64,000 nt of DNA from Pseudohongiella spirulinae. Its GTDB lineage: Bacteria > Pseudomonadota > Gammaproteobacteria > Pseudomonadales > Pseudohongiellaceae. Position numbers and translations under genes: made by a program. The stretch's first letter is position 1; the number at the start of each line of letters is the position of its first letter. The stretch lies in the NCBI RefSeq assembly GCF_001444425.1, contig NZ_CP013189.1, forward strand, positions 1,922,001 through 1,986,000, written 5' to 3'. Positions 11,021-64,000 of this stretch are shown here, one piece after another. The notes below the pieces were generated by a model. It saw only the letters and a program-made list of their open reading frames with translations. It did not search any database and was not told the DNA's origin.

Positions 11021-11055
11021 ACGCGGGGGACGGAGAGCGGAGTCTCCGTCCCCCG
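11021..11055 (+). repeat. REP unit directly after wzc
   Basis: A variant unit with twelve-pair arms, GGGGGACGGAGA and TCTCCGTCCCCC, around GCGGAG. It begins five bases after the wzc stop on the transcribed strand. It could end part of the transcripts between the export genes and the sugar genes, or be overridden by RfaH-modified polymerase. The remaining bases to rfbI show no gene. Confidence 0.92.
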
Positions 11056-11059
11056 AGGC

Positions 11060-13363
11060 TTATGCCTCGTCCGACTTATACGCGTAGTGGTAATACCCGT
11101 ACCCGTAGCCATAGCCGTAGTAGGACGAGGCGCTGCGCTCAATCGCATTCAGGATACTACCCTTGACCGACACACCTGCGCTCTCAAGTTGCTGCAGCGC
11201 ACGCTCGATTTCTTTGGGGTTGTTCTCACGGAAGCGGGTAATCATCAGCGTGGCACCCACCTGTTTGCCTACCACAGCCGCATCGGTCACAGCCAGTGCC
11301 GGTGGTGTGTCGATAATCACCAGGTCATAGTGCTGCCCTGCTTCTTCCAGAAACTCATTGAACTTGCGGGTCATCAACAGTTCACTGGGGTTGGGTGGCG
11401 CCGTGCCACGTGCCACATAATCCAGACCCTCAAGTTCGGTGTGCCGTATCATCTGTTCCAGTGTGATGTCCCCCACCAGGTAATCACTCAGGCCCTGTTC
11501 GCTGTGGCCGGCAAATGAACGGTGAATATGGCCTTTGCGCAGGTCGCTGTCTATCAGTAGTACTTTTTGGCCGCCCTGGGAACAGATGGCGGCCAGGTTG
11601 GTGGAGATAAAACTTTTACCCACCGCCGGGCTGGGGCCGGTCAGCATCAGTCTATTGTTGGGCGCTTCCAGCATGGCAAAGTGCAGGCTGGTGCGCAGGC
11701 TGCGTAATGCCTCAATGGCCAGGTCGCTGGGGTCTATCAGGGCCAGCACGCCGCCGTCTTCGCCGTGTTTGCGGCGTTTGCCGGTTTTGCTCATCCGCTC
11801 GGCCAGTTGTTTGCCCACCACGTTTTTCAGGCGCTTGCGGGATTTGCGGTCGCTGAAGCGGTCGAATATTTTCAGTTGCCGTTCGGACAGCGGAATGGTG
11901 GCGTAGACCTGCAGACCCAGGGCCTGGAGTTCTTCTACCGAGGTCACGCCGCGGTGCAGCATGTGACGCAGCAGTACCACCATCAGGCCCAGCATCAGGC
12001 CGGCCATCAGGCTGATCACCAGAATCAGATTGGTGCGCGGAGCAATCGGGCTGCCACCCACCAGGGCGTTGTCCAGAATGCGCACATTGCCTACGGTGCC
12101 GGCGCGGGCGATACGCAGTTCCTGCTGGGCGTTGAGCATCTGCATGTAGATCTGCTGGCTCACTTCCACATCGCGGTTCAGGCGCAGTACCTGGCGCTGG
12201 GTTTCTGGCAGGTTGTTGACCTGGGCTTCCAGGCGCTGCTGCTCGCCCAGCAGTTGGGCGCGTTTGTCCAGCAGGCTGCGGTAGTTGGGGTGGCTGGGGG
12301 TAAAGCGCTGGGCCACTTCGCTTTCCTGAATCTGCAGGGCGTTAAGTTCGGTTTCCAGGCTGACCAGGCGCTCCAGCATGCTGCGGGTCTCAAAGCTCAG
12401 GTCCACAGAGTCCTGGCTGGCGCGGTATTCGTTCAGGCGGTTTTCGGCGCTGTTCAGGCCATCCTGGATCAGCGGGGTCTGTTGCTCCAGAAACTCCAGG
12501 CGGCTTTCGGCTTCGGCGGCCTGGCGGTTGATGTTCTGTACCAGGTAGACGTTGGAGATGGCGTCCAGTGAGCGGCGCAGTTCTTCGGGGTCGGGGCCGG
12601 TCAGGGTGAGTTCCAGGATGCCGGTGTCGCGGCCGCGCTGGGCTACGTTAAAGCGGCCCTGCAGGTTGCGGATCATCTGGGTGTCGCTGCGTTTGATCAG
12701 GGTGAACTCGACGTTGGCCGGGGCCTGGAGGCGGCTGACCAGGAGTTCTATGTAGGGAGTATCGCTGCTGAACAGGGTGCCAACGCGGCCGTTGCCCAGG
12801 GTCTGTTCGTTTTCATTTATCAGGGTGTAGTTGTCGGGGCCGGTGATTTTGAGGGTGATGGGTTGGCCCTGCAGCGCTTGTTCCACGCGCATTTCATCCA
12901 CGGTAATGCTGTCGCCGGCCCAGGCGTCCGCGCTGCCCTGGGCCCAGCCGGGGCGTTCGGTGCCGCGTCTGGTGAGGGCGGCGCCTATGATGGGGAAGCG
13001 TCTGGGTTGGACTACCAAGTCGAGCCCGGCCTGCTGGGCGGCCTGGCCCATGATCATGCGCGAGCGCAGGATTTCGCTCTGGGTGGTGGAGCCGGTCTGT
13101 TCCTGCATGGTGATGATGCTTTCCATGCTGGCCAGGTTGCCGCCGCGCTGTTCTACCTGCAGCAGGGCGTCGGCGCGGTATTCGGGGGTGGCCAGCCAGG
13201 CGTAGGCGGCGCCGGCCAGGGTGACCAGGGCGGTGATGATGATGATCAGCCACTTGTTGTCCAGGCAGATGGCCAGCAGGTAGCCCAGATCGATTTCGTC
13301 GTCGGCTTGTTGTTGACTCTGGCTGCTGCGGGGGCGGTTGCTGGGGCTGCTTGTTTCTGTCAT
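11060..13363 (-). CDS. wzc: Wzc-type polysaccharide co-polymerase and BY tyrosine kinase
   Basis: A 767-residue inner-membrane protein controlling chain length and export. A Wzz domain lies between two membrane helices (about residues 38-57 and 430-452) with a long periplasmic coiled-coil segment between them. The cytoplasmic C-terminal kinase has Walker A GPSPAVGKS, Walker A' VLLIDSDLR and Walker B DLVIIDTPP. The extreme C-terminus is a tyrosine cluster, SSYYGYGYGYGYYHYAY, the expected autophosphorylation tail dephosphorylated by Wzb. It forms the wza-wzb-wzc module with the two upstream genes. A REP hairpin begins directly after its stop codon. Confidence 0.93.
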   Translation of the reverse strand: MTETSSPSNRPRSSQSQQQADDEIDLGYLLAICLDNKWLIIIITALVTLAGAAYAWLATPEYRADALLQVEQRGGNLASMESIITMQEQTGSTTQSEILRSRMIMGQAAQQAGLDLVVQPRRFPIIGAALTRRGTERPGWAQGSADAWAGDSITVDEMRVEQALQGQPITLKITGPDNYTLINENEQTLGNGRVGTLFSSDTPYIELLVSRLQAPANVEFTLIKRSDTQMIRNLQGRFNVAQRGRDTGILELTLTGPDPEELRRSLDAISNVYLVQNINRQAAEAESRLEFLEQQTPLIQDGLNSAENRLNEYRASQDSVDLSFETRSMLERLVSLETELNALQIQESEVAQRFTPSHPNYRSLLDKRAQLLGEQQRLEAQVNNLPETQRQVLRLNRDVEVSQQIYMQMLNAQQELRIARAGTVGNVRILDNALVGGSPIAPRTNLILVISLMAGLMLGLMVVLLRHMLHRGVTSVEELQALGLQVYATIPLSERQLKIFDRFSDRKSRKRLKNVVGKQLAERMSKTGKRRKHGEDGGVLALIDPSDLAIEALRSLRTSLHFAMLEAPNNRLMLTGPSPAVGKSFISTNLAAICSQGGQKVLLIDSDLRKGHIHRSFAGHSEQGLSDYLVGDITLEQMIRHTELEGLDYVARGTAPPNPSELLMTRKFNEFLEEAGQHYDLVIIDTPPALAVTDAAVVGKQVGATLMITRFRENNPKEIERALQQLESAGVSVKGSILNAIERSASSYYGYGYGYGYYHYAYKSDEA

Positions 13364-13398
13364 GCGTTGTGTGACTTCTCGTTAGTGTGGCTGTGGGC

Positions 13399-15081: not shown

Positions 15082-15145
15082 GGGGACGGAGGTGGTCTAC
15101 GTCCCCAATTGTTGGCTCGAGGGACGGAGGTGGTCTACGTCCCCC
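15082..15145 (+). repeat. Two tandem REP units in the wza leader
   Basis: Two direct copies of the window's palindromic repeat, 15082-15106 and 15119-15145. Both have the GGTGGT loop variant and arms GGGGACG/CGTCCCC (the second copy lacks one G). They sit between the ops element and wza, inside the leader RNA. On the wza transcript each can fold into a seven-pair or longer hairpin, so they are possible targets of RfaH antitermination. Confidence 0.9.
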
Positions 15146-16286: not shown

Positions 16287-16319
16287 GCGCGGGGGACGGA
16301 GGCGGTCTACGTCCCCCGC
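16287..16319 (+). repeat. REP unit between the EPS operon and the toxin-antitoxin pair
   Basis: A single palindromic unit, GCGGGGGACG arm, GAGGCGGTCTA loop, CGTCCCCCGC arm. It is intergenic, between the divergent EPS operon promoter and the FitA-type gene. The arms here extend to ten pairs by including the outer GCG/CGC bases. Confidence 0.95.
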
Positions 16320-17659: not shown

Positions 17660-17696
17660 GCGCTGGGGACGTAGACCGCCTCCGTCCCCAGCGTCA
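17660..17696 (-). repeat. REP unit after the transglycosylase-like gene
   Basis: One inverted copy (GTAGACCGCC orientation) with outer GCGCTGGGGAC and CCCCAGCGTCA sequences. It follows the TAG stop of the upstream gene immediately and could serve as its transcript end. It is the nearest repeat upstream of the truncated RAYT gene. Confidence 0.95.
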
Positions 17697-18245: not shown

Positions 18246-18734
18246 GCATCGCCGATTTGGGGGCGCGGCAATAACAAGCAGATTGTGTTTCGCGAACCAC
18301 GCGATTATCGCTATTACCTGAAACTCTGGATGGATTGCGCGAAACGCTACGGGCTTGATGTGCATGCCTTTTGCGAAATGACAAATCATATCCATTTTCT
18401 GGTTACTAACCGACAAAAAGATGCCATTTCGCGCACGATGCAAACAGTTGGCAGCAATTACGCGCGCTATGTAAACCGGGAATACGACAGAACCGGATCG
18501 CTCTGGGAGGGTCGCCACCGCGCACATCTGGTACAGGGCATGGAGTATGTAATGCAGTGCTACTGCTACATTGAGCTGAATCCTGTGCGCACGGGCATCG
18601 CGGCGAAGCCCAGCGATTATCCGTGGTCCAGCTACCACAATACCGCGATTGGCTCACCCGGCTGGCTGACGCGGCATGGGACGGCGTTGACGGATGAGGA
18701 TGCTTTTGAGGTTGAAGTCTGCGATTACCATTAA
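18246..18734 (+). pseudogene. REP-associated tyrosine transposase (RAYT), 5'-truncated
   Basis: The frame right after the DUF2442 stop reads PIWGRGNNKQIVFREPRDYRYY, which joins a RAYT protein in mid-domain: the usual 20-25 N-terminal residues ending in a HV-x-x-RGN-like strand are missing. The rest is well kept: the HUH motif in MTNHIHFLVTN, the catalytic-tyrosine region YARYVNREYDRTGSLWEGR, and CYCYIELNPVR with DYPWSSY. No ATG precedes the core; a GTG at 18285 would give 149 residues. RAYTs cut and join single-stranded REP hairpins. This copy is probably inactive, but a closely related intact copy elsewhere could mobilise the repeats in this window. Confidence 0.8.
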
Positions 18735-18903: not shown

Positions 18904-23136
<4,233 letters not shown>

Positions 23137-23158: not shown

Positions 23159-26100
23159 TCACATCGCCGCCAACTCGGCCGCTTCTTCTATATCTACCGC
23201 CACGATGCGGCTCACGCCGGGCTCATGCATGGTCACACCCAGCAGCTGGTTGGCCACTTCCATCGTCAGTTTATTGTGCGTAATAAAGATGAACTGTACC
23301 GTGTCGGACATCTCTTTGACCAGCCGGCTGTAGCGGCCGGTATTGGCGTCGTCCAGCGGCGCGTCGACCTCGTCCAGCATACAGAAGGGCGAGGGATTGA
23401 GCCGGAAAATAGAGAACACCAGAGCGATGGCAGTCATGGCCTTTTCGCCGCCGGACAGCAGGTGGATGGTGCTGTTGCGCTTGCCGGGCGGGCGAGCCAT
23501 GATGGCGACGCCGGTGTCGAGCAGGTCTTCGCCGGTCATATCCAGATAGGCGTGCCCACCGCCAAACACCTTGGGGAACAGCTCCTGCAGGCCGGCGTTG
23601 ATTTTGTCGAAGGTTTCCTTGAAGCGGGTGCGCGTTTCGCGATCGATCTTGCGGATGGCGTTTTCCAGCGTCACCAAAGCCTTTTCCAGGTCCTCATTTT
23701 GGGCATCCAGGTACACTTTACGTTCGGACTGCTGCTGATATTCCTCGATCGCGGCCAGGTTAATGGCGCCCAAGCGCTGAATGCGCTGACCGATGGCCTG
23801 TAATTCCTGCTCACATTCGTCTGCAGTTAACTCGTCGGGCAACTGTGCCAACACGGTTTGCAGGTCATAGCGCGCCTCGCGCAGCTGTTCCGCCAGGGCT
23901 TCGCGCTTGACCAGATCACCTTCTGTTTTCAGGCGATTTTCCATCAGTTTTTCACGCAGACCGGCGGCCTGACGTTCAAAGCCGGCGCGCTGTTGCTCCA
24001 GAGCGCGCAGCTGATGTTCGTTTTCATCGGCGGCGGCCTTGGCGGCAGTCATCTGCTCTTCCACTGCCACGCGTTTTTGCAGCAGCAGCTCCAGTTCCTC
24101 GCGCTTGCTTTCCAGCGGCATATCGGACTCGGCGAGCTGCCTCTCTATCGATTCGATGCGTTCACGAGCGCGCTGCACCTGGGTGCTCATGCGCGCCATG
24201 GTGTCTTTGACCGAGGTAATCTGGGTCTGCAACAGCTGCGCGCGCATGCTGATCTGGTGGTGATGATCCTTGTCGTGGCGCGCTTTCTGGCGCACCTGAT
24301 CCAGGGTCTGGCGCAGCTCATCACGCTGCTGCAGCAGTTGCTCGCGCCGCTCAACATCCTGCTCCATGGTGTCCAGCGCCAGTTGCAGACGTTCGCGCGA
24401 CTGAGTGATGTTGTCCTGCTCGAATTCCAGTTGCTTCTGCAGCTCTTCCAGCTCATGCTGCAGGCGATTGCGACGCTGATTGGCCTGCTCTTCTTTCATG
24501 ATTTTGGCGCTGAGGCGTGATTTCAGGTCGCTGTGCTCACGGCTCATCTGGGCGATGCGGCGCTGTACATCGTCGCGGCGTGATTCCAGGTCACGCAGGC
24601 TGTCACGGCTTTGCTGCTGCTGATCGACCAGCTCATCCACGCGCATCTGCAGCTCATCCATCTGCTCCTGCAGGCGGGTCATTTCACCCTTGCGAGCCAG
24701 CATGCCCTCGGCGGCATCGACGGATTTTCGCACGCGCAGCCAGTTTGGCCCCAGCCACAGGCCGTCGCGGGTGACGACTGACTCATGGGTCAGCAGGTCT
24801 GGGCGCAAGGCCATGGCCTGTTCCAGCGAGTCAGCGGCAAAGATGTTGCCCAGCAGTGGCGCCATGTCCACGGTGCTGGTGATCTTTGAGCTCAGCAGCG
24901 GCGCGTCGACGACTGCACCGGGGACGGAGGCGGTCTCCGTCCCCCGCGTCACCAAGGTGACGTTGGGGACAGAGACCGCCTCCGTCCCCCGCGCCAGATC
25001 ATCCACACAAACCGCCTGCAGGGTATCGCCCAGCACCGCCTCTACAGCCTGCTCCCAGCCCTCGGCCACCTGAATCTTTTCGCCCAGGCGGGCGTTATCG
25101 GCCAGGCCACGCTCGGTCAGCCAGGCATTGAGTTTGTTGTCTTTCTGCCCCAGCGCCGCCTGCTGCAGAGCTTCCAGGGAGGCGAACTGGCCTTTGCCGC
25201 GCTGCAAATCGGAGCGGGCCTGGTCCAGCTCGGCGGACAGCTGCTGGCCGCGGCTGCGTTCCTGATTGATGCCCTCGGCCATATCGGAACTCTGGGCCTG
25301 TTGCGCCTCCAGGTCATCTTCCATCTGGGTCAGCTGCATGGACAGCTCTTCAATGGCATCCTGTTCGGGGTTTTCACCCAGTGTGGCGCGTTCTTCTTTC
25401 AGGCGAGCGCGGCGCTCAATGCCCCGCTCAACAATCTTTTCCAACTGCTGGATGCGCGACTGCTCCACTTCTGCCGTCTGGCGCGGCTCTTCTGAACGCT
25501 GACTGAAACCGTCCCACTCATGCTGCCACTGCTGCATGCGCTCCTCGGCTTCTTCCAGCTGAATGGCCGACTCTTCGGCGGTGTGTTCAGCCATCTCCAG
25601 CTCGGGTGTCAAGGCATCCAGTTCACCCTGCAGGTTTTCAAGCTTCTGCACATCCACATCCATGTCGGACTGGGACTGGGAGAAGCTGCGGCGGTTGTCT
25701 TCCAGATCGGCGCGCAGCTGTTTCATACGCTCAATGTGATGCTCAATGGACTGTTCGATGCGGGCAATATCGCCACCGATGGAGTAGTAGCGCCCCTGCA
25801 CTTCGCTAAGCGCGTCATTGCGCTCGGTCTGGTTCAGCAGCAGCTGTTCATGTTGCGCATCCAGCGCGCGCTGATCGGTGATCACCGCCTCTATCTGCAG
25901 CTCCAGATCGCGAATCACCGCCTGCTTCGACTCGACTTCTGTGTTAAGAGCACGCCAGCGCAAAGCATTATACTGCGCATTAAGATCACGCTCTTGTGAT
26001 TTGTATTCCTTATATTTTTCTGCAGCCTGCGCTTGACGATGCAGATGCTGCAACTGTCGCTCCAGCTCCTCACGAATATCAGTCAGACGCTCCAGGTTCT

Positions 26101-27949: not shown

Positions 27950-30661
27950 ATGTATCCTGACAGCCGGTTCACCCGCAAGCATCTCAATCAACTGATTGCC
28001 GGCACGATGCTGGCTGGCCTGGGGCTGACCGCGCAGGCCAATGATCTGAGCATTGACAATGGCGCACTGACACTCAGCAGCGGCGGCTTTTCCGCCAACG
28101 CCACGGTAGGCACCAACGGGGTGGTTTCTCCCCGGGTGACGGATGTGCCAGTATCAGGCAACTTCGGTATCCCCAACTTCAGCTTCAATCTCGTCAACAG
28201 CGCGGCCGCCCCCACCAATGGCACTTACAACTTCAAAATAGGCGTGGCCATTGCCGATGAGGATTCCAACCGGCGCTTTGAAGCCTTTCTGGGCCAGTTG
28301 ACGCTTGAAATCAGCAATAACGGGCAGACCATTACCGGCTCGGTTCCGAATCAGGATCTGATCGTGATCGGACGCGATGGTGTCATAAGCGCCTCGGCCG
28401 TACTGAGCAATGCCTCGGCCAACGGCCCGGTCAGCATCAGCGGCGGGCAGGTTACCTTCAGCGGCACCCGGCTGGTAGACCGGCTAAAGGCGGCCAGTTC
28501 TGCATTCGATGCGATCCTGGACAGCTTTGATACTGGCGGACATTACACTTACCGCGTGGTCATTGAGCAGACAGACGGACCGTCAACGGTGCGTTTCGGG
28601 CGCTCAGACAGCGGCAGCTTCAGCGCCTTCCCGCGCGTACGCACAAGCTGTTCATTGAGCACCGCTTCGCAACTGAGCAGCGTGTTCGCGCTCAATGGCA
28701 CGGTCAACAACCAGGCGTATACAGTCGGCACACAGTTCAGCCAGGCCTATGCTGTACAAGGACAGTTCAGTGTCACGGGCGCCACGGGTACCGGTGACGC
28801 CCTGCCGGCCGCTTTCACAGAGACCTGTGTCAGCACACCTGATTCTGGCGGCGGTTCTTCTGGCGGTGGCGCAGGCTCGGGCGGCGGCTCGGGCGGCGGC
28901 GCTGGCTCTGGCGGTGACTCGGGAGCCGGCGGGGATTCTGGTTCTGGTGATGATAACGACGACGCCGAAGACGTGGTTTCAGAGACTGATCTGAACAATC
29001 AGCAGCAGGAAGTGGACGACCTGGCACAGCAGGTTGAACAGGCGCTGCAGAACAACGGCAGCGTCACCACCGAAACAGTCACCAAAACAGGTGAGGTCAC
29101 CGGACTGGCAGCCACCAACACCAACAAGATTGCCGAAGCACTCAACAGCGGCACCAATGTCAGCAAAACCAACATCCTGGGCACCATCAGCTCAGCGGCC
29201 AAGGCTGGCAACACCGGCTCCACCGTTATCCAGAACGCTGCTGACAATGCCGCGCGGCAGGAAATCGTAGCGACCAGCCGCACTGTCATCAACAACAGTT
29301 CAACGGCCCTGGCGGCGCTGGCTGATCGCCGTGACAGCGGTGCGGAGCAACTGAGTTCGGAGGAACTGGCACAGGTCAAGGAGGCCTCCACCAACCTGCT
29401 GAAAACAGCCGCAGCGGTGAGCGGTGACAGCAACACCACCTCAGAACAACTGGCGCAAATCGCCCGCTCGGCGGCCAGCATCATTGATGCCGGCCAGCGC
29501 CTGGGTGTGGCGGCTGACGAGGCCGTAGTCAACACGGTGCGGGATGCCAGCAGCAAGATAGCCGAGGCCGCAATCCGCGCAGTTGCCGGCGCTGATGTCA
29601 GCGATGAGCAGATCAGCGAACTGCTGGCAGCCAACGAAGACCTGGCAGAACAGGTGCTGAGTCTGGCATTGCCCATACCACCGGCCGTGGTGGAGTCCGG
29701 CGAAGATGCCAAACAGCGACTGCAGCAAAATGCCGGTGAGCGGGGGTTACAGACCTCTGACGCAGCGCTGGAGCGCATCAGTCAGGCGGCCCGCAAGAAT
29801 ATCGTCAGACCTGACAACATTGTGGTCGGCGGTGTCAATATAGTCAGCAAACTGCAGGCCCTGTTCCGTGGCACAGCCGGATTGCTGTCGCTGATCGACA
29901 ACCGCGGCGGCACGGGCGGCATTGCGGCAATTACTGCCGACGAAGCGGACATCATTGTGGATGAGGCTACCGGTTCGGTGGTTGTGCAGCTACCCGGCGA
30001 AACCTATGCCGGCGCCATAGTCTCGGTCAAGTCGGTGCCGACTACCGTACCCAACGGCATTCGTCTGCGCCGCGATGGCCGGGGTGTGATTGTCACCGAA
30101 GGCATTGCTGTAGAATTGGCACCTATCGCACTGGATGTACTGGGTTTTGCGGCCGCCGTGGAAGCGGCCGGCTTCCCGTTCTCACTGCGCGACAATGCAT
30201 CCGTTTCGCTGGACCTGGGCAACGGTGAACGCTTCTCGGGCGCATTTGCCTATGACAATCTGGACGGCAAGACGGTGACCAACTGCGGTGCCGTGACCTT
30301 TGCAGACCCGGCCGGCCCCGTCAATTCGGCCAATCACGCGTTTGGTGTTAACTGCGCCAATGGCGTGTCGCAGACCATGCAGCCATTTGTCGATAACAGT
30401 GACTTCTTCGACAGTCTTGAAGCTGAAGGTCTGACAGGCCGAGTGGATCGCAGTACCGGCATGATCACGGTTGGCGGCGTCGGGCGCTTCAAGCCAGGCT
30501 TCTTTGTCAGCCCCCTGACAGCCGCCGACAGCAGTTTCCATGCAGCAAACAAGGACAGTTTTGACATTGCTTTCCGCGCCGGTGATGTGAATGGCGACGG
30601 CATTATGGATTACAGCATCATTTCGCCAAATGGCGTGCAGGTTCTGTACGGCACACCCTGA
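27950..30661 (+). CDS. Large secreted protein of unknown function, paralogue A
   Basis: A 903-residue protein with a signal peptide (LIAGTMLAGLGLTAQAND). Parts in order: an N-terminal beta-rich domain (about residues 30-290) with cysteines; a Gly/Ser/Asp-rich linker (about 298-335); a helical Ala/Thr/Asn-rich region (about 340-600) with NLLKTAAAVSGD and AADEAVVNTVRDAS; then a conserved C-terminal part with VPNGIRLRRDGRGVIVTEGI, NCGAVTFADPAGP and GRFKPGFFVSPLT. The end has DVNGDGIMDYSII, a calcium-binding DxNxDGxxD loop. The next gene is a paralogue with other middle domains. I recognise no family name. Confidence 0.8.
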   Translation: MYPDSRFTRKHLNQLIAGTMLAGLGLTAQANDLSIDNGALTLSSGGFSANATVGTNGVVSPRVTDVPVSGNFGIPNFSFNLVNSAAAPTNGTYNFKIGVAIADEDSNRRFEAFLGQLTLEISNNGQTITGSVPNQDLIVIGRDGVISASAVLSNASANGPVSISGGQVTFSGTRLVDRLKAASSAFDAILDSFDTGGHYTYRVVIEQTDGPSTVRFGRSDSGSFSAFPRVRTSCSLSTASQLSSVFALNGTVNNQAYTVGTQFSQAYAVQGQFSVTGATGTGDALPAAFTETCVSTPDSGGGSSGGGAGSGGGSGGGAGSGGDSGAGGDSGSGDDNDDAEDVVSETDLNNQQQEVDDLAQQVEQALQNNGSVTTETVTKTGEVTGLAATNTNKIAEALNSGTNVSKTNILGTISSAAKAGNTGSTVIQNAADNAARQEIVATSRTVINNSSTALAALADRRDSGAEQLSSEELAQVKEASTNLLKTAAAVSGDSNTTSEQLAQIARSAASIIDAGQRLGVAADEAVVNTVRDASSKIAEAAIRAVAGADVSDEQISELLAANEDLAEQVLSLALPIPPAVVESGEDAKQRLQQNAGERGLQTSDAALERISQAARKNIVRPDNIVVGGVNIVSKLQALFRGTAGLLSLIDNRGGTGGIAAITADEADIIVDEATGSVVVQLPGETYAGAIVSVKSVPTTVPNGIRLRRDGRGVIVTEGIAVELAPIALDVLGFAAAVEAAGFPFSLRDNASVSLDLGNGERFSGAFAYDNLDGKTVTNCGAVTFADPAGPVNSANHAFGVNCANGVSQTMQPFVDNSDFFDSLEAEGLTGRVDRSTGMITVGGVGRFKPGFFVSPLTAADSSFHAANKDSFDIAFRAGDVNGDGIMDYSIISPNGVQVLYGTP

Positions 30662-30725: not shown

Positions 30726-30948
30726 GAGTTTATACTCCCCGTGTAGAAAAAAATTCTCAACAATCGCTTTAAGCTCTTGAAGCAAAGTCAAATTCTTGAC
30801 ATATTTGAGAGCGAAAATGATTACAAATTTTTACACTATTGCTGGCAATTTTGTGGCTGACGAGCCAAGTCTTAAGCAATTTGTTTTAATTTGACCTCCC
30901 AACATGTTGAAAACTAAAGAAATCCAAGGTACCAGAGGGATACGCAAA

Positions 30949-33900
30949 ATGAACAACAAGACCCGGTTCAAGAAAAAATTGCTCAGCCAGGTGGTCGCCG
31001 CCAGTCTGCTGGCTGGCGCAGGTACGGCAAGCCAGGCGGGCGATTTCGCGCTCGCCAACAACTCAGTGGCTTGGCTGGACACTAACGGCAACACCCTGCA
31101 GACCGTCACCGTCGGCGCAAACGGCGTTGCCAGCTCGGCCACTCTGGCCACCAACCCCGGGTTTGTGGTGCCCGATATCGGCTTCCAGCTCAATGTGGTT
31201 GATGCCGCTCCCGGCGACTACTTTGTGCGTATCGGCCTGCATGTAGAAAGCCAGACCAATGAGAATCACGTGCTCAACATGACCATGGGTGTGGCCCGGG
31301 TCATCGTGGCCGACGTCGGCGGCACCAATGTCATCCAGAGCGTCAACATGGTCACCAGCGGCCAGGCCAACTACGATAATATCGAGATCCGTGCCCGACG
31401 CGGCAATCTGTCTCTGGCCACAGAAGACTTTGAAGCCAAGGCCAATATGCTGTCATTTGACGGGGCTACCAAAAATATCCGTCTGAATGTGGGCACCATC
31501 TTCAACGCTCTCTCCAACAATAATGCTCTGTTTGATGAGATCATGAATGGCGCCTTTGGTAGCGGCGCTCACTATGACTACGGCGTGCTGATCCAACCGG
31601 TGGCCGGACCGACCACCGTGCGGGTCGGACATGAAAACGGCGGTACTTTCTCGCTGTTCCCGCGCGTCATGGCCAGCTGTCCGCAGATCAGCGATCTGCA
31701 GTCAGCCAATGTATTCAATCTGAGCAGCAGCGCTCTGGCCAACAAAATCCCGTCGGCACACGCCGCCATCGGCACCCTGACCGTCGGCAGCCCCGGGACT
31801 GCGGCGACCGCACAGACTGCCATTGTAGAGAACTGCCATCTGCCAGCCGTGTCTATTACCAGCGCCACCTCATTTACCAACGACACTGGCACCGAACCAT
31901 ACACCGTGGCAGTCACTGCAACCGCAACCGATGCCGATGACTATCACGGCATCGCCAGCACTGAGTGGCTGGTTGGTGGCAACGTGGTGGCAACAGGCAC
32001 CTCAGCCAACCTGTCATTGAACAATGGCGACACCACTGTGACCTTCCGGGCCACCGATGAGAAAGGCGGCGTGAGCACGACCTCAGCCACTATCACCGTG
32101 AGCGAACCGGCTCCGGCGCCCAACCAGGCACCTGAAGGCCTGGCCATCGGCGCACCTTCCAGCCCCATTCTCGATACCGATGGCAAGGCCGGTGAAACAC
32201 TCGGCGGCTTCTCGGCCACTGCGACGGATCCCGATGGCGATGACCTCACCTATGAATGGTTTGTCAACGGCAACTCTGCCGGCAGCGGGGCCAGCCCCAG
32301 CCTGACACTGCCCGTTGACGGGGCGAATACCGTGTTCTTTATCGCCAGTGATGGCAAGGGCGGCGAGGCCACTTCCGATGCGGTAACGGTGGAAGTGCGT
32401 GAGAACCAGGCACCGGTGGTAACACTGACGGTGAATGGCGGCAGTTCAACTACTGTCGATTATGATCAAGACGTCACTTTCACCTGGAACGCCGTCGACC
32501 CGGAGGGTCGAATGTCTGGTCCCGGCACATTTTTGACTTTTGCAACTGACGGGGATTTCGGCATTGGCCCCGGACCCATAGTGGTCGACTCAACTTCTGG
32601 ATCTTCCACCGTCAGCTTTTCCCCAGTAACCGTTTCGGAGTCTGGCGGCACAGTAACCGCAAACATCCAGTTCACGGACGATTTCAACAAAGCCGGCACC
32701 GCCACCGCCGTGGTCATCGTGCGAGCCCGAGACAGCTCTGGCGAGGAGCCACCTGCCAACAACAACCCGACCATCGAGATTGTAGGCCCAACCTCTTATG
32801 AGGATACCGATGCGCTGGCCGGTGAGGCTGTCACCCTGACCGCCAATGTCACTGACGCGGACGGTGACGACATCGTGCTGCGACAGTGGACAGCACTGGG
32901 CGAAACCAGCAGTGGAGCGGTGCTCAGTCGTCGCTTCCCCGATGGGGACACTCCGGTCACCTTCCGCGCCGTCGATTCTCGCGGCGGAGAGTCCGAGACC
33001 GTGGTAACGGTGAACGTGGCAACCTTTGTACCCGCACCCAGCAACACTGAGGTGCTTGATACCATTACGCAGCAGAATAACGATAACGAAAATCTGCAGC
33101 AGCAGACCGGCAATCTGGATGAACTGATCCAGACAGGTGGTACGGTTTCGCAGGAAGTAGCTACCACGACCACCACCGCCGCCACCAAGGCGGAGGAAAC
33201 CACCCGGGATCTGCAAAAAGCGGTCACCAGCGGTACGGTAACCACCTCGACGGCGCTGAAGGCCATTCAGAGCACCAGTACCACGACCACGCTGGCCTCT
33301 AACGTATCCAAGGCTTCCACGGAAGAGAACAAGGCAACAATCACCACCACGGTCTCCAATACCGTGAAAAACGCCGCCAGCACCTTCACGGCGCTGGCCA
33401 CCCGAACGACCCAGGGTGGTACCAAGCTCTCTGATGAGGACAGCAACACGGTCAAAACGGCCAGCACCAACCTGCTCAAGTCGGCCGGTGATGTCTCCCA
33501 GAACACCACCAGCAAGGCTCAGATTGCCGAGCTGGCCCGCTCTGCCAACGAAATCATCCAGGCCACCAAGAACCTGGGTGTAGGCGCCGATGAGACGGTG
33601 GTCAATGCGGTACGCGATGCCAGTGCCTCCATTGCGACAGCGGCGGCCCGTGAAGCGATCCGCGAAACCCTGAGCGAAGGTGAAGAGTTGCCCAGTGATG
33701 AGGAAATCCGTCAGGTTCTGGAACAGAACGAGGATCTGCTGGAAGATGTCTTCAACCAGACGCTGGAGATTCCACCAACAGTCGTTGATGACAGACCGGC
33801 GGTAGACCCGAACAATGTTCAGGTGGGCGGCACCAGTGTACTGGATCGCTTGCGGGCCTTGTTCCGCGGCACCGGTGGTCAATCCACGCTGATGGTCAGT

Positions 33901-34662
33901 GACGGACGAACCGGTACTGTCACCGCCGTGACTGCCGAGGAATCGGAAATCGTTGTTGATGCCGAAACAGGCGCAGTGACCATTATATTGCCGGGCGAAA
34001 CCTACGCCGGCGCCATTGTCGCGGTGCGCTCAGTGCCGGCGGTGGTGCCCAATGGCATCCGTATCCGTCGTGACGGACGCGGCATCATTGTGACAGACGG
34101 TATTGCGGTAGAACTGGCACCGGTGGCGCTGAATCTGGGTGGTTTCACCACGGCGGTGGAAGATGCCGGCTTTGGCTTCACGCTGCGCAATAACGCTACC
34201 ATCTCGCTGGATCTCGGTGGCGGTGAGCGCTTCTCTGGTGCCTTTGCCTATGACAACCTGACCGATCAGGATGTCAGCAACTGTGGCGCGATCAGCTTCA
34301 CCGATCCGACCGGTCCGGCTAACTCGGCCGGCTATGCCTACGGCGTCAACTGTGCTAATGGCGTCACCCAGAAGGTACAGCCGTTCGTTGACAATGCTGA
34401 CTTCTTCCAGAGCATGGAAGCGCTGGGTATTGCCGCGCGGGCCAACCGTGACAACGGCTTTATCACGCTGCCGGGCATTGGTCGCTTCAAGGCCAGCTTC
34501 TTTGTCACGCCATTGAGTGAGGCGGAGCAGGTCTTCCATGCGATTAACAAGGATGAGTTTGGCATTGCTTACCAGACCATGGATCTGAACGGTGATGGCA
34601 TTGTCGACTACAAGGTGATTTCAGCCAACGGCGCCCAGATACTGTACGGAGCCGCTGACTGA
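30949..34662 (+). CDS. Large secreted protein with PKD/cadherin-like repeats, paralogue B
   Basis: About 1237 residues. I use the ATG at 30949 (MNNKTRFKKKLLSQVVAASL, signal peptide ending TASQAG); an ATG at 30904 would add 15 residues. The N-terminal domain (to about residue 290) and the whole C-terminal half match paralogue A: TNLLKSAGDVSQ, GADETVVNAVRDAS, VPNGIRIRRDGRGIIVTDGI, NCGAISFTDPTGP, and a DLNGDGIVDYKVI calcium loop. In place of the Gly-rich linker are four immunoglobulin-like PKD modules (about 300-700), each with DPDGDDLTYEW- or DADGDD-type motifs. Likely surface-exposed or adhesive; unproven. Confidence 0.82.
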   Translation: MNNKTRFKKKLLSQVVAASLLAGAGTASQAGDFALANNSVAWLDTNGNTLQTVTVGANGVASSATLATNPGFVVPDIGFQLNVVDAAPGDYFVRIGLHVESQTNENHVLNMTMGVARVIVADVGGTNVIQSVNMVTSGQANYDNIEIRARRGNLSLATEDFEAKANMLSFDGATKNIRLNVGTIFNALSNNNALFDEIMNGAFGSGAHYDYGVLIQPVAGPTTVRVGHENGGTFSLFPRVMASCPQISDLQSANVFNLSSSALANKIPSAHAAIGTLTVGSPGTAATAQTAIVENCHLPAVSITSATSFTNDTGTEPYTVAVTATATDADDYHGIASTEWLVGGNVVATGTSANLSLNNGDTTVTFRATDEKGGVSTTSATITVSEPAPAPNQAPEGLAIGAPSSPILDTDGKAGETLGGFSATATDPDGDDLTYEWFVNGNSAGSGASPSLTLPVDGANTVFFIASDGKGGEATSDAVTVEVRENQAPVVTLTVNGGSSTTVDYDQDVTFTWNAVDPEGRMSGPGTFLTFATDGDFGIGPGPIVVDSTSGSSTVSFSPVTVSESGGTVTANIQFTDDFNKAGTATAVVIVRARDSSGEEPPANNNPTIEIVGPTSYEDTDALAGEAVTLTANVTDADGDDIVLRQWTALGETSSGAVLSRRFPDGDTPVTFRAVDSRGGESETVVTVNVATFVPAPSNTEVLDTITQQNNDNENLQQQTGNLDELIQTGGTVSQEVATTTTTAATKAEETTRDLQKAVTSGTVTTSTALKAIQSTSTTTTLASNVSKASTEENKATITTTVSNTVKNAASTFTALATRTTQGGTKLSDEDSNTVKTASTNLLKSAGDVSQNTTSKAQIAELARSANEIIQATKNLGVGADETVVNAVRDASASIATAAAREAIRETLSEGEELPSDEEIRQVLEQNEDLLEDVFNQTLEIPPTVVDDRPAVDPNNVQVGGTSVLDRLRALFRGTGGQSTLMVSDGRTGTVTAVTAEESEIVVDAETGAVTIILPGETYAGAIVAVRSVPAVVPNGIRIRRDGRGIIVTDGIAVELAPVALNLGGFTTAVEDAGFGFTLRNNATISLDLGGGERFSGAFAYDNLTDQDVSNCGAISFTDPTGPANSAGYAYGVNCANGVTQKVQPFVDNADFFQSMEALGIAARANRDNGFITLPGIGRFKASFFVTPLSEAEQVFHAINKDEFGIAYQTMDLNGDGIVDYKVISANGAQILYGAAD

Positions 34663-34805: not shown

Positions 34806-35861
34806 ATGGCTCTCTATGCGTTGATCAGCACCTTCGCGGTAACATGCTTTGCATTACTCGCGCTGAGGCCCCTGGCCAGCCGCGTTGGCCTTATTGATAT
34901 TCCGGGCGGACGCAAGACTCACCAGACTCCCACACCGATGATAGGCGGTTTGGGCATTTATCTGGGCACACTCGCCATTTGTATGCTCTCCCCGGTCCTG
35001 ATGAATGACTACCTGATATTGCTTGCAATCTCCGGACTCGTGCTGTTTGTGGGAGTGCTGGATGATCTGTTTGATATCCGGGCATCACTTCGCATGTCCA
35101 TGCACGCAGTGGCAGCCTGGGTAATGGCCGTCAGTGCGGGCATACAGATCCGCTCGTTCGGGGATATCCTGTTCCTGGGCCCTGTCGAGCTGGGACTGCT
35201 GGCTGTACCGGTAACCCTGTTTGCCACCGTAGGTGTCATCAATGCGGTCAATATGAGTGACGGTCTGGATGGCCTGTCCGGTGGTCTGGTTGTGATCGCA
35301 CTGGTGATGCTGTCCATCGCCGCGCTAAGTTCCGGCCAAAGCTCCATCCTGAGCTTCAGTCAGATCCTCATCGTCTCTCTGCTGGCCTTCCTGGCCTTCA
35401 ATTTCCGCTTACTCTGGAAAAAAAGTGCCCTGGTATACCTGGGAGATGCCGGCAGCACCTTGCTCGGTTTTATCCTGGCCTGGCTGGTGATTGCGGCGTC
35501 ACAGGGCGAGAATGCCTTCATCGCGCCGGTGACAGCACTCTGGTTTCTGGCAGTCCCTCTTATCGATACGGTCAGCCTGCTGATTCGTCGCCCGTTGCAG
35601 GGCCGCTCTCCCTTCTCTCCGGGTCGGGATCATTTACATCACCGCCTGCTGAACGCTGGTTTTAACGTTAAACAGACCGTGTTGATGATGCACGGCGCAG
35701 CTATTGTCTTCGGCCTGATCGGTCTGGCCGGTCACTTTGCAGCCCTGCCCGATGGCATGATGTTCACCGGCTTCCTGGCACTGTTTGCCATCTACATGTT
35801 CGTCTCACGCCGCCTGCTTGGTGTCGCCGAAGACAGCGTTGGCGCTGGGGACAGTTGCTGA
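34806..35861 (+). CDS. wecA: WecA-like undecaprenyl-phosphate sugar-1-phosphate transferase
   Basis: A 351-residue polytopic membrane protein of the MraY/WecA family. Signature segments are GGRKTHQTPTPMIGGLGIYLG, NAVNMSDGLDGLSGG (the aspartate-rich catalytic motif), YLGDAGSTLLGF and GRDHLHHRL. It should transfer GlcNAc-1-phosphate or a related sugar phosphate to undecaprenyl phosphate, starting glycan assembly. It could supply the initiating step for the polysaccharide cluster 20 kb away, which shows none. Its last codons (AGDSC) and TGA stop are made of a REP-type palindrome at 35841-35909, so the native C-terminus has been replaced. Confidence 0.88.
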   Translation: MALYALISTFAVTCFALLALRPLASRVGLIDIPGGRKTHQTPTPMIGGLGIYLGTLAICMLSPVLMNDYLILLAISGLVLFVGVLDDLFDIRASLRMSMHAVAAWVMAVSAGIQIRSFGDILFLGPVELGLLAVPVTLFATVGVINAVNMSDGLDGLSGGLVVIALVMLSIAALSSGQSSILSFSQILIVSLLAFLAFNFRLLWKKSALVYLGDAGSTLLGFILAWLVIAASQGENAFIAPVTALWFLAVPLIDTVSLLIRRPLQGRSPFSPGRDHLHHRLLNAGFNVKQTVLMMHGAAIVFGLIGLAGHFAALPDGMMFTGFLALFAIYMFVSRRLLGVAEDSVGAGDSC

Positions 35862-35909: not shown

Positions 35910-35911
35910 AC

Positions 35912-45107: not shown

Positions 45108-45386
45108 GCGGGTAATCTCTTCCGCGTCCGCCTTCAGTGCCTATCGGCCATGGCAACCGGATGTCAGGTCGGATCCGGCCATCTTGTTCCCCCGTACAAC
45201 CGGCGCTGCGGAACTCGACCTCGCCGCACAGCGGCTCGGGACTCGGACAGGCCTCGCGCTTATTCGGTTGTACGGGGAAACAAGAAAGCATGGCCTGATT
45301 GGATCCGACCTGACATCCGGCTGCCAAGGCCTGGAATTGGCTTTGGTGGGTGCGTCAGGCATTACCCGCTCAAGCCGTCTCGCGGA
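45091..45386. repeat. 296-bp palindromic element overlapping the end of ivd
   Basis: Terminal arms of 26 bases (45091-45116 and 45361-45386) match with one mismatch and include GAGACGGCTTGAGCGGGTAA. Inner arms around GGATGTCAGGTCGGATCC (from 45149) and GGATCCGACCTGACATCC (from 45300) pair again, as do CCCCGTACAACCG and its complement. The centre holds GGAACTCGACCTCGC-type sequence also seen inverted near 53.1 kb. It has no transposase gene and looks like a non-autonomous element. The left arm carries the ivd stop codon. Confidence 0.8.
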
Positions 45387-45719
45387 CTCAGCATTGAGCA
45401 GAACATGCGCCGGTTTTCCGCTGGGTGTAACGCGGGGGACGGAGGCGGTCTACGTCCCCTTTTCTGTTAGCGCCAACCGGCAAGCTACCGGGCGGGGGGA
45501 AGGTTCCTCGGGTACACCCTCGCTCACATTCCCCCCGCCCGGCAACTCGCCTGGATTGAACAGCGGCGCTGGGGACGTAGACCGCCTCCGTCCCCAGCGC
45601 AGCGAGGGTGAGTTCCGCAGCGCCGGCTGGGCAGGCAATGATGGTGGCCAGTTCCAACGGTGCCCGCACTCACCTGCCCCGCTTTCGATCGAAGCTGTTC
45701 TAGCTGCCAGGGAGATATT
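45108..45719. other. 612-base gap between ivd and mccB filled by repeats
   Basis: The gap holds the body of the 296-base palindrome, then a REP composite (45430-45600) and about 119 further bases with no gene that I can recognise, ending in the mccB ribosome site AGGGAGA. Several frames are open only because the repeats lack stop codons. Transcription of the leucine operon must cross this structured region or restart in it. Confidence 0.8.
45430..45600 (+). repeat. Type A REP composite, 171 bp, upstream of mccB
   Basis: Two facing REP units (45430-45460 and 45565-45600) enclose a conserved spacer. The spacer has a perfect inner inverted repeat, GGGCGGGGGGAA and TTCCCCCCGCCC, around GGTTCCTCGGGTACACCCTC. 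Copies with the same structure lie in mccA and in uvrC. All three share the orientation of the gene they lie in or precede. Confidence 0.93.
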
Positions 45720-48151: not shown

Positions 48152-50051
48152 TCAAGTCTCTGCTGATCGCCAACCGGGGCGAGATCGCCTGCCGCATCAT
48201 CCGCACTGCGCATCGGCTGGGGGTGCGGACAGTGCCGGTGTGGTCTGAGGTAGATCGCGGGGCGCTGCATGTGGCGCTGGGGACGGAGGCGGTCTACGTC
48301 CCCCGGTCGGTCAGCGCCTGCCGGCAGACCACCCGGCGGGGGGAAGGTTCCTCGGGTACACCCTCGCTCACATTCCCCCCGCCCGGCAGTCTGCCTGGAA
48401 CTAAAGCTAACGCTGGGGACGTAGACCGCCTCCGTCCCCAGAATCCTTACCTGGACCTGGGCTACCTTATTGAAACCGCCCTCGCTGAGGATGCTGAGGC
48501 CATCCACCCTGGCTATGGCTTTCTGTCGGAGAACGCTGAGTTTGCTCAGGCGGTTGTGGACGCCGGGCTGATTTTTGTCGGGCCGCCGGCCTCCGCGATC
48601 GCGGCCATGGGCTCTAAGTCCCAGGCCAAGCGTTTGATGACTGAGGCAGGTGTGCCCTTGCTACCCGGGTATCATGGGGATGATCAATCCGCAGACACAT
48701 TACTGGCCGAGGCGAACAAGATCGGGTATCCCGTGCTGATCAAAGCGGTGTCTGGCGGTGGTGGTCGTGGCATGCGCATTGTTGAGGATGCGGCACAATT
48801 CTCTGAGGCCCTGGCCGCCGTCAAACGTGAGGCGAAAGCGGCGTTTAACGACGATAAAGTCTTGATTGAGAAGTACCTTGCACGCGCACGGCATGTGGAA
48901 GTTCAGATCTTCGCTGACAATCATGGTAATTGCCTGCACCTGCATGAGCGTGATTGCTCGATTCAGCGCCGGCACCAGAAGCTGATAGAAGAGGCACCTG
49001 CCCCGGGCTTAAAAACCGCCACGCGGCTGGCTATGGGCGAAGCAGCTGTTCGTGCAGCGCAGGCCATTGGCTACAGCGGAGCAGGTACGGTGGAGTTCTT
49101 GTATCAGGATGATGCTTTTTATTTTCTGGAAATGAATACCCGCCTGCAAGTTGAGCATCCAGTCACGGAAATGATCACCGGCCTGGATCTGGTTGAATGG
49201 CAATTGCGCGTAGCGTCGGGCGAACCTTTACCTGTCACGCAGGATGAGATTCAGCGCGATGGCTGGTCTATTGAGGCTCGTATTAATGCTGAAAGCGGAG
49301 CGCCGGACTTTCTGCCATCAATCGGGCTGATTGAATCACTGCGCTGGCCGCGGGGCGAGAACATCCGGGTGGACGCCGGCTTCCGTGCGGGTGATCGCAT
49401 CAGCATGAACTATGACAGCATGATTGGAAAAGTAATTGCACATGGCTCCTCTCGGGCAGAAGCAGTTGCACGGCTATCTGAGGCTTTAAGTCAATTGCAG
49501 ATCAATGGCATAGAAAACAATGCTGATTACCTGGGCGCGATTCTGGATACCGACGCGTTTCGCCAGGGCGAGGTACAAACCGGATTTATTATGGATCATC
49601 AGGCCGCTATCGCAGCGGAACTGGTAAGACGGAATAGTGCACGAATGACCTCTTCGGCGACAGGCGCTGCGTCGGCTATCAAAAGCGCCAACGACTGGGG
49701 GCACCTGTCTGCCTGGCGTAGCGTTTCCAATGCCTATTCTGTGCAGCATCACTTACGCCCCCTGTTTGGCGACGGCAACCCTTCTGCCGCCTGTGATCCG
49801 GTGACGCTGACCGGCGACACGCATGCGGGCGATCATCACAAGCAGACCCGCGCGCCATTGCCCGGACGCATCATCAGTGTGCAGGTGAGTCCCGGCGATA
49901 CTGTCAAGGCGGGTCAAGCGCTGCTGATCATGGAGGCAATGAAAATGGAACATACCCTGCGCGCCGCGGCCGACGCTGTGATTGACTCAGTGCTGTGCGC
50001 TGAGGGTGATATGGTGCAACCGGATCAGATTTTGATGGAGTTTACTGACTA

Positions 50052-50052: not shown

Positions 50053-52907
<2,855 letters not shown>

Positions 52908-52910: not shown

Positions 52911-53224
52911 CGCGGGGGACGGAGGCGGTCTACGTCCCCAGCACAACTTCCTATACTCTGACAGGTGGCACAAGGGCTGGGTGAGGGTGGAAACGATGGG
53001 AACCTTTCAGGCCATGTTTTCTTTTCCCCGCTGACAGCCGAAAAGCGGGCGGGACTGTCTGAGTCCCGAGGGGCGCAGCCGCGAGGTCGAGTTCCCCCCC
53101 GCCGGATGCCAGCGGGGAAAAGATGGCCGGTTCACAGCGCGTCCACCCTCACCCAGCCCGCTCTGCAACGAAACTAATGCGCGAGGAAGATCAGGGACGT
53201 AGACCGCCTCCGTCCCCCGCGTCA
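52908..53224. repeat. Type B REP composite, 317 bp, between aacS and mtnC
   Basis: A plus-oriented REP unit (52908-52942) and a minus-oriented unit (53192-53224) lie at the ends. Between them is a second inverted pair, GCTGGGTGAGGGTGG (52977-52991) and its complement (53144-53158). Inside that is GGGACTGTCTGAGTCCCG and a GAGGTCGAGTTCC segment shared with the 45.2 kb element. The left end TAACGC gives the aacS stop; the right end gives the mtnC stop. The 311-base gap holds no gene. Confidence 0.88.
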
Positions 53225-62579: not shown

Positions 62580-62655
<76 letters not shown>

Positions 62656-62762
62656 ATTAAACTGGTTTTTTTACGTCTTTTGCATCACTGCGAAAGAGGC
62701 GCTTATTCTAATGGCATTCGGTACGATGTCAAGCATCAGTCTCCGAATTTTTCGCCGTTTTT

Positions 62763-63308
62763 TCACCTCATGGTCGGCAAGGCACTCTTCAAATAGTTGA
62801 CCATGGACCACACACTCAAGGCGGCGGAAAGATATATCAACACATAGCCCAATTGCAAGACCCAACGCGGAAATTCCGGGCTGTAGGCCAGCAAAACGAT
62901 GATGGCAATCATCTGCACGGTGGTTTTCACCTTGCCTATATAACCAACGGCCACCTTGTCCCGCTCGCCGCGTGATGCCATCCATTCGCGTAATGCGGAG
63001 ATGAAGACTTCGCGGCCGATAATGATGGCCGTGGGGACCACAAACCAGGGACTGGGGAAATTGGCGGTGAGCAGCACCAGCGCCATCACCACCAGCAGTT
63101 TGTCGGCCACCGGATCCAGAAAGGCGCCAAAGGGCGAGGTCTGATTCAGTTTGCGGGCCAGGTACCCATCCAGCCAATCGGTGATACTGGCAACGGTAAA
63201 CAGCGCCGCGGCTGCGAGCTGGCTCCAGGCAAAACCACTGTAGTAAACCACAACAATCAGCGGCACCAACAGGACTCGCGATATTGTTACCGTATTGGCC
63301 GCGTTCAT
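62763..63308 (-). CDS. pgsA: CDP-diacylglycerol-glycerol-3-phosphate 3-phosphatidyltransferase
   Basis: A 181-residue inner-membrane enzyme that makes phosphatidylglycerophosphate from CDP-diacylglycerol. The CDP-alcohol phosphatidyltransferase motif is SITDWLDGYLARKLNQTSPFGAFLDPVADK, with the D-x2-D-G-x2-A-R-x8-G-x3-D-x3-D pattern complete. Several membrane helices follow. It lies 48 bases after uvrC and ahead of three tRNAs, the arrangement seen in E. coli. Confidence 0.96.
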   Translation of the reverse strand: MNAANTVTISRVLLVPLIVVVYYSGFAWSQLAAAALFTVASITDWLDGYLARKLNQTSPFGAFLDPVADKLLVVMALVLLTANFPSPWFVVPTAIIIGREVFISALREWMASRGERDKVAVGYIGKVKTTVQMIAIIVLLAYSPEFPRWVLQLGYVLIYLSAALSVWSMVNYLKSALPTMR

Positions 63309-63356
63309 TGCTGATTGTCTCTCCCTTGTATTCCCGATCGTGTAACAGCGTGCATT

Positions 63357-64000
63357 CTACTCATTATGCAGAGACTCATAAATAACAGCAGCGAGTTTTT
63401 TGCTGATACCGGGTGTGCGGGCCAGGTCGGCCTGACTGGCACGCATGATTTCCTGCTGACCACCAAAGTACTTCAGCAGCTCACGTCGCCGGGCCGGACC
63501 CAGGCCGGGAATCTGCTCCAGCGGCGACTGATTGCGGGTTTTGGCACGACGCTGGCGGTGGCCGGTAATAGCGAAACGATGCGCCTCATCACGCACCTGC
63601 TGCAGCAGATGCAGCGCGGGCGAATGCGCAGGAATGGCAATCTCCTGATAGCTGTCCCCGACCGCCAGAAACAGCGTCTCCTGCCCTGCCCGACGGCTGA
63701 TACCCTTGGCGATGCCAATCAGCAGCATGCCCTGCAGTTGCTCGGGCGTGAGCGTGCGGTTGAGCACGTCCACCGCCTGGGAGAGCTGACCTTTGCCGCC
63801 GTCGATGAGCAGGATATCCGGCAGTGGGCGCTGAGAAGCCGGTTTACCCTGGGGACGGAGGCGGTCTCCGTCCCCAGCGCTAATGTCTGATCCAGGCAGG
63901 CCGTCGGGTGGGGGGGAAGTGAGCGAGGGTGTACCCGAGGAACCTCCCCCCTGGCCGGCGGCTTGCCGGTTGGCATTGACCGACGGGGGGACGGAGACCG
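63357..64000 (-). CDS. uvrC: Excinuclease ABC subunit C (partial, 5' end off window), with repeat-derived insert
   Basis: The C-terminal 213 residues of Uvr[21 protein letters not shown] is the conserved RNase H-like endonuclease motif, and the helix-hairpin-helix pair [23 protein letters not shown] ends the protein. The frame stays open through the REP composite at 63850-64000, which is read as [15 protein letters not shown] and [12 protein letters not shown]. That insert lies just before the motif, where relatives have a short linker. The short GTG-initiated frame at 63773 is only the part after the insert. UvrC makes both incisions in nucleotide excision repair. Confidence 0.93.
63850..64000 (-). 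repeat. Type A REP composite in frame inside uvrC (runs off window)
   Basis: One REP unit at 63850-63880 and the start of another at 63980-64000 enclose the type A spacer, here in reverse. GGTTCCTCGGGTACACCCTC is again conserved. The uvrC frame is open across the whole visible part. Confidence 0.92.

Follow-up and report, generated by a model that had tools for sequence, protein, structure and literature searches.

A hairpin repeat family clustered around a RAYT-type gene in Pseudohongiella spirulinae, with a few copies in frame inside genes

Repetitive extragenic palindromic (REP) sequences are defined in RepRanger as seldom overlapping genes (PMC12306157), and their spread is described as poorly understood (PMC8266576). 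Intragenic REPs were published in 2013 for many genes, often genes of DNA synthesis and repair including those for DNA ligase and UvrABC; the same paper reports REPs at about the same recB site in two Xanthomonas species, and others close to gene ends (PMC3733652). REPs concentrated near a transposase gene (PMC8266576) and orthologous REP-associated tyrosine transposase (RAYT) genes flanked by different hairpins (PMC3686654) have also been described. Here we analyze a palindromic repeat with the core GGGGACGGAGGYGGTCTMCGTCCCC in a 64,000-nt stretch of Pseudohongiella spirulinae DNA (NZ_CP013189.1, positions 1,922,001–1,986,000; hereafter the window, whose numbering is used unless genome coordinates are indicated), in which the repeat lies between genes, inside several genes and around a RAYT-type gene. 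We propose that it is probably a non-autonomous element of a RAYT (TnpA_REP, HUH tyrosine transposase) system that lacks the GTAG tag, like the TIRtrons. Intragenic REPs, clustering near a transposase and hairpin switching are each already in print separately; new here are their combination at a vertically inherited locus, the repeated use of the same sites, and an enzyme fusion built by the repeat. A literature search, which left most subscription journals outside, found no paper on both Pseudohongiella and palindromic repeats.

The repeat core and the RAYT gene within its array

The core GGGGACGGAGGYGGTCTMCGTCCCC is present in 66 exact copies in the 3,345,119-base single-contig genome, and at up to three mismatches in 105 places (99 of them listed, including all exact copies), where a reversed control pattern gave none. 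At up to four mismatches, counted in retrieved stretches of DNA only and not genome-wide, there are 97 core units in 56 loci, 22 units and 13 loci of which belong to the window. Many units are arranged as head-to-head pairs, their 5′ flank is mostly RCGCK, and in this genome's core GTAG occurs only within one arm. The hairpins fold well as DNA (z from −3.4 to −10.3 for the six tried). In the window GGGGACG is found 48 times where 8.1 would be expected, a count reached in none of 100 shuffles. Two variant hairpins, at 11026–11053 and 35840–35910, raise the window total to about fifteen loci, the number given in an earlier note that had been made from the letters of the window. A scan of the window against Rfam at the gathering threshold returned three tRNAs only. 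The core is nearly absent from relatives: four of 55 other genomes, all congeners, hold it at up to one mismatch, in one or two places each, and the named records that contain it are a Pseudohongiella metagenome-assembled genome and Gammaproteobacterium LSUCC0112.

The earlier note had placed cores in frame inside six genes, and our translations agree. For five of these we use the names ligA, zipA, smc, mccA and mvaB-aacS, partly after that note, and the Pfam and NCBIfam models matched are consistent with them: LigA, ZipA and Smc, biotin carboxylase plus a biotinyl domain for MccA, and HMGL-like plus AMP-binding domains for MvaB-AacS. The sixth, presumably uvrC, was identified by a 72% match to an open reading frame (ORF) of a congener. 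The features, with strand where one is assigned, are as follows.

11026–11053, plus strand: variant hairpin, intergenic
15082–15144, plus strand: two tandem cores (15082, 15120), intergenic
16292–16316, plus strand: single core, intergenic
17665–17689, minus strand: core, intergenic, 8 nt from the 3′ end of the SLT gene
18246–18731, plus strand: putative RAYT relic (Y1/HUH REP-associated tyrosine transposase; PF01797 42 bits, NF047646 66 bits)
19712–19736, plus strand: core in frame in ligA, in the spacer between OB fold and zinc finger, translated GDVDRLRPP
22727–22803: head-to-head pair (cores 22727/22758) and half core, in frame in zipA
24920–24989: head-to-head pair (cores 24920/24965), in frame in the smc hinge
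35840–35910: variant hairpin of the nested form GGGGACAG/GGGGACGG, flanked by convergent genes; its overlap with the ORF ending at 35861 is confined to the final codons
37223–37321: inverted pair (37223, 37297), intergenic, at the 3′ end of a gene that we take to be msrA (37326–37952)
45435–45595: inverted pair (45435, 45571), 136-nt offset, intergenic
48279–48439: inverted pair (cores 48279/48415), 136-nt offset, in frame in mccA (biotin carboxylase)
50945–51051: repeat cluster (cores 50963/50988) fusing mvaB and aacS into one frame, with the aacS N-terminus replaced
52915–53217: inverted pair (52915, 53193), 278-nt offset, around a cruciform insert; intergenic, both ends abutting stop codons
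57267–57291, minus strand: core most likely just upstream of a presumed pirin-like gene and not translated, since the matches of relatives start downstream of it
63851–64000: inverted pair (cores 63851/63987, the second ending at 64011), 136-nt offset, in frame in uvrC, whose frame extends beyond the window to 65390

Amid this array lies the 162-residue frame at 18246–18731, which we read as the relic of a RAYT gene that has since decayed. Eight congeners have open frames of 235–261 residues at the corresponding gene; in comparison, the relic is missing an N-terminal strand and diverges early at its C-terminus. Judged by eye, the sequence preceding it is similar to an ORF that congener G008 has in its RAYT slot. 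The match to PF01797 lies above the cut-off, whereas the best NCBIfam match, NF047646 (REP_Tyr_transpos), stays below its cut-off of 80 bits both here and in G001 (73 bits). The sole match in the PDB is TnpA_REP (4er8), which is weak (E 0.024), although the HUH and tyrosine positions align by eye. The earlier note had noticed the intragenic repeats, but neither this gene remnant, which lies mid-array, nor the concentration of repeats near it.

A RAYT homologue, 48–59% identical, is found in eight of 14 congeners. In all eight, hairpins of the species' own kind stand on both sides of the gene; they are close in seven, and in G014 the hairpin on one side is about 0.5 kb away. In seven of the eight the repeat sequence reaches into the C-terminal codons of the RAYT. 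In this genome the cores nearest to the relic lie about 0.6 kb (17665) and 1 kb (19712) from it. An SLT homologue adjoins the RAYT in seven of the eight congeners, the eighth contig being 3.2 kb long; readings of this genome, G001 and G007 gave the order SLT–RAYT–ligA. As judged by this synteny, the RAYT gene has been inherited in place beside the SLT gene and, where read, ligA.

The six congeners G005, G008, G009, G011, G012 and G013 have a distant second RAYT only. In G008 the RAYT slot, between SLT and ligA, is occupied by a segment of about 1.2 kb with hairpins at either end and short ORFs within, which presumably encode a DUF2442-like protein and a toxin-antitoxin pair of the HigBA type; in G009 SLT and ligA lie next to each other with almost no gap. 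A second RAYT-like protein (genome positions 3245366–3245707, read as a 340-residue open frame) is matched in all 15 genomes searched, with a frame of 119 residues in G004. As a candidate mobilizer it found no backing, as the six of its loci that were viewed had no hairpin of the GGGGWC family around the gene; five of the six hold other inverted repeats.

Clustering and turnover of the hairpins

The repeat is concentrated around the RAYT. A segment of 256 kb (1.838–2.094 Mb, 7.7% of the genome), inside which the RAYT is located at 1.940 Mb, contains 38 of the 66 exact copies. When loci are counted instead, 31 of the 56 are no more than about 153 kb from the gene, a count that favors this region, as copies at up to four mismatches were counted only in retrieved DNA; the count of exact copies carries no such bias. 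In 20,000 uniform simulations the richest 306.5-kb stretch contained at most 17 loci. An effect of the replication terminus was considered and excluded: the GC skew of sampled stretches changes sign between 1.10 and 1.80 Mb, and no exact copies lie between 1.032 and 1.838 Mb. Hairpins of the related kind are grouped likewise in congeners, with 18 of about 46 loci (after merging in this analysis) in the 81-kb contig end that holds the RAYT in G001, six of 17 within 76 kb in G007, and 17 of 25 in G003 on three contig stretches that map to 1.86–1.97 Mb of this genome. The same pattern finds 66 hairpins in G014. The clustering fits the proposal by Nunvar and colleagues, in which coupled transcription and translation lead a RAYT to act preferentially on the REPs that flank its own gene (PMC3686654).

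Several observations, besides the bias in the locus count, weigh against a RAYT-centered origin of the cluster. First, in G008, which is without this RAYT, the homologous neighborhood concentrates 15 of 28 hairpins into about 99 kb, so that the neighborhood itself could be permissive. Second, G001 has another cluster on a different contig (C2: 931–941 kb). Third, the RAYT is not intact in this genome, and an active mobilizer is thus not shown here. An alternative would therefore be that the neighborhood is permissive or hot and that the RAYT is there by coincidence, and the conserved synteny within the genus does confound position with gene. We consider this unlikely: G009, a close relative of G008 that is also without the RAYT, has only four hairpins genome-wide and, across 70 kb of this region, a single arm that matches, and in Marinomonas sp. 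MWYL1 the REPs are also found near their own transposase genes (PMC8266576).

The cluster could also reflect a recent horizontal arrival of the RAYT, as proposed for Marinomonas (PMC8266576). Many identical copies with fewer far off, and the confinement of the core outside this genome to the four congeners, would agree with such an event. It is nevertheless improbable, given the homologous RAYT by the same SLT gene in seven of the eight RAYT-bearing congeners, and given that, of the 14 genomes in which the Smc hinge was readable, 11 have hairpin arms of this general type there (G000, G001, G002, G003, G004, G005, G007, G008, G010, G013 and G014, but not G009, G011 and G012; G006 gave no smc).

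The hairpins themselves were compared between species with a search pattern defined by their shared ends, GGGGWCGGAG...CTCCGWCCCC. The arms are of the form GGGGACGG/GGGGTCGG, and the insides are species-specific: GCAATAC is found in 19 of 25 hairpins of G003 and 0 of 17 of G007, whereas G[AG][AGT]ATAC is found in 10 of 17 of G007 and 0 of 25 of G003. In G001 the pattern gives 63 hairpins whether A or T or only T is allowed, none of which ends in GGGGAC...GTCCCC; G001 nonetheless has two places of this genome's core.

Sites are shared between species to an extent that depends on the pair (36 tests; P values uncorrected). For sites at gene 3′ ends, this genome shows no sharing above chance with six congeners (6/6 pairs, P 0.12–0.74); such sites are shared above chance among G001, G003 and G007 (P 0.0004–0.0008), and between each of these and G014 (P 0.001–0.04). 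Internal sites are common to this genome and G001, G003 and G007 (P 0.010–0.024), without a significant excess for G008 (P 0.18) or G014 (P 0.16). Far from the RAYT, seemingly the same two convergent genes enclose differing hairpins at genome positions 85299–85652 here and at G007:C1:2234983–2235024. The shared sites are compatible both with renewed insertion where it is tolerated and with replacement in place.

Tentatively, we raise the possibility that hairpins turn over in place, such that sites, including the Smc hinge, would be inherited while the sequence at many of them would be jointly rewritten towards the version that brackets the local RAYT; this would amount to a frame-keeping concerted evolution driven by a RAYT that acts preferentially in cis. 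The Smc hinge peptides are alike within G002, G004, G005 and G010, and part of the sharing at the hinge is thus inheritance. In these four genomes and in G001 the insides of the hinge hairpin differ from those of the hairpin flanking the RAYT, which speaks against complete rewriting.

Placement relative to genes and the in-frame inserts

A REP-type palindrome has entered coding DNA in frame, as the earlier note held, and the four read-through peptides that it quoted are present in the translations. Its description of the family as widely translated is too strong. Only eight of the 56 loci are internal to genes, versus a mean of 38.9 and a minimum of 30 in 500 random placements of the same spans, so that coding copies are strongly depleted. 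The eight are LigA, ZipA, Smc, MccA, MvaB-AacS and UvrC, together with two outside the window that we take, from their sequences, to be a CheW-like protein (genome positions 1824628–1825326) and an Lhr-type helicase (395950–400473). Genes were called with a purpose-made hexamer caller rather than a published one (89% coding), and the count of eight omits (i) ORFs of up to about 120 residues, namely FliO, whose C-terminus is repeat-encoded, and a 74-residue ORF, (ii) C-terminal copies, in MnmC, a GGDEF/EAL protein and a hydrolase, and (iii) two probable misread N-termini, of a pirin-like protein and HisB, all of these names being our presumption from the sequences. Of 72 intergenic units, 46 lie no more than 60 nt from the 3′ end of a gene; the edge of the core is the fifth base past the stop codon in 15, because the left flank often reads TRA-CGC. 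The intragenic share is 7/31 near the RAYT and 1/25 far from it (Fisher P 0.063), and we claim no difference.

According to the earlier note, selection for an open core let the repeat survive in coding DNA and act as a spreading source of protein linkers. Five of the six frames of the core are indeed free of stop codons, copies are in frame at the eight loci, and some inserts are in loops, that of MccA coinciding with a low-confidence stretch of the model (residues 53–99). Five open frames are, however, ordinary for such sequence. Among 20,000 shuffles of the core 35% had five open frames and 53% had six, 88% thus having at least five, and among 20,000 random palindromes of 70% GC five or six were open in 71%. 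Selection for an open core is therefore unsupported and was rejected. The depletion of coding loci also disagrees with it, and congener hairpins such as GGGGTCGGAGAGATCATTTTTTGATCTCTCCGACCCC have TGA in some frames and yet have spread. We regard the linker explanation as highly improbable. An assembly or sequencing artefact is scarcely credible for differing copies at unique loci of a single-contig genome estimated to be 100% complete, with insertions of the same kinds in the assemblies of other congeners.

Where relatives are without the repeat at a site, they are also without the peptides (MccA, six of six congeners; UvrC, the one compared; MvaB-AacS). MccA is longer at the insert by 36–41 residues than in all six congeners, the repeat-encoded stretch spanning residues 45–98 approximately. 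The stretch replaced in relatives, LAD.A, resembles the start of the repeat core, a resemblance that may have guided the insertion. In an AlphaFold model of MccA (mean predicted local distance difference test score (pLDDT) 66, from an alignment of only six rows), residues 53–99 are the sole stretch with pLDDT below 50 within the first 200, with flanking blocks at about 80. UvrC has 42 extra residues compared with that of G001. For LigA, ZipA and the Smc hinge, exact limits of the insertions cannot be drawn because the site is a variable spacer in the aligned species. ZipA (20965–23136; 723 residues) carries long acidic repeats of the EPEPEP type, and ZipA models match its C-terminal part only.

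The genes mvaB and aacS are separate frames in six of six congeners and form one frame of 952 residues here through the repeat cluster, with roughly 40–60 N-terminal residues of AacS swapped for repeat-encoded sequence. A structure model of the fusion had a mean pLDDT of 47 and was not used. HMG-CoA lyase makes acetoacetate and AacS activates it, in consecutive metabolic steps; since the product of the one is the substrate of the other, substrate channelling in the fusion is conceivable. We consider the encoded peptides to be tolerated passengers, to which the MvaB-AacS fusion may be an exception.

A second repeat of about 185 nt is found in the window at 45121–45336 and 52969–53184, and forms a long branched hairpin with the conserved core GAACTCGACCTCGCGGC...GGGACTCAGACAG. 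Alignment of 23 copies of this genome's DNA (a 24th match, at 3254170, was left out as a chance match) revealed changes on both sides in 52 of 69 pairs. One-sided changes hardly occur in the outer stems (8 cells across 50 pairs × 23 copies), and G-U is almost absent. This combination suggests a palindrome at the level of DNA, kept by copying between arms, rather than an RNA, and the window scan gave no Rfam match for it at the gathering threshold. For 13 of the 23 copies a REP core is no more than 140 nt away, and many of these copies sit between two cores in inverted orientation. The second repeat also occurs in stretches of G003, G008 and G009, and in none of the sampled stretches of G001, G007 and G014. 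Separately, the neighboring large ORFs at 27950–30661 and 30904–34662 have several DNA stretches in common at 64–81% identity and are likely paralogues.

Proposed mechanism and comparison with known systems

For the RAYT-linked explanation we infer mobilization of single strands by the RAYT with a preference for cis, followed by selection. The RAYT would act on single-stranded hairpins, chiefly near its own gene, and the hairpins would be pasted beside an RCGC(G/T)-like motif. Many surviving insertions would be those directly past stop codons. Few would survive inside genes, because the frame must be kept and a tolerant loop must be hit; the Smc hinge, the LigA and ZipA spacers and the biotin-carboxylase loop would be such survivors. 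In this genome the RAYT would have decayed afterwards. With the transposase fixed in place and the hairpin specific to the species, the genus offers a natural test of cis preference and in-place replacement. The copies in LigA, Smc, ZipA, MccA and UvrC bear on how far important proteins tolerate hairpin-encoded peptides, and the MvaB-AacS fusion is a concrete case of repeat DNA creating a new protein architecture.

Among described systems, TIRtrons, with their TIRYT genes (Di Nocera 2013, PMC3733652), are alike in having a RAYT-family gene bracketed by palindromes without GTAG, repeats dispersed singly and in pairs, and arms that start with GGGGW. They are likened here by description. A GGGGWSAS motif is common to some of their terminal inverted repeats (PMC3733652). 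The arms here start with GGGGWCGG, and one variant, GGGGACAG at 35840, fits the motif. The present system differs in its strong clustering round the RAYT gene.

The GTAG REPs and REPtrons of E. coli, Pseudomonas and Stenotrophomonas share the transposase family, hairpins, head-to-head pairs, location at gene ends and occasional intragenic copies. Unlike them, none of 51 hairpins in the scanned stretches of five congeners has GTAG or GTRG within 6 nt outside the hairpin, and the flank in this genome is mostly RCGCK.

The orthoswitch of REP classes (Nunvar 2013, PMC3686654) likewise involves syntenic RAYT genes with different hairpins in related strains. In that model old copies stay and decay (PMC3686654), whereas none of the 63 GGGGTC-type hairpins of G001 has GGGGAC...GTCCCC ends, although degraded old copies would escape the pattern. 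Rickettsia palindromic elements (RPE), also compared by description, are palindromes translated in frame in many genes (PMC3733652), a trait seen here at 8/56 loci of one genome. RPE-4 and RPE-6 are CGTC-tagged, and the same paper reports that no transposase gene was found with CGTC repeats (PMC3733652). Finally, the Marinomonas REPtrons Ma and Mb are alike in that REPs are concentrated near the transposase gene, but they are read as a recent arrival (PMC8266576), whereas the gene described here has been inherited in place.

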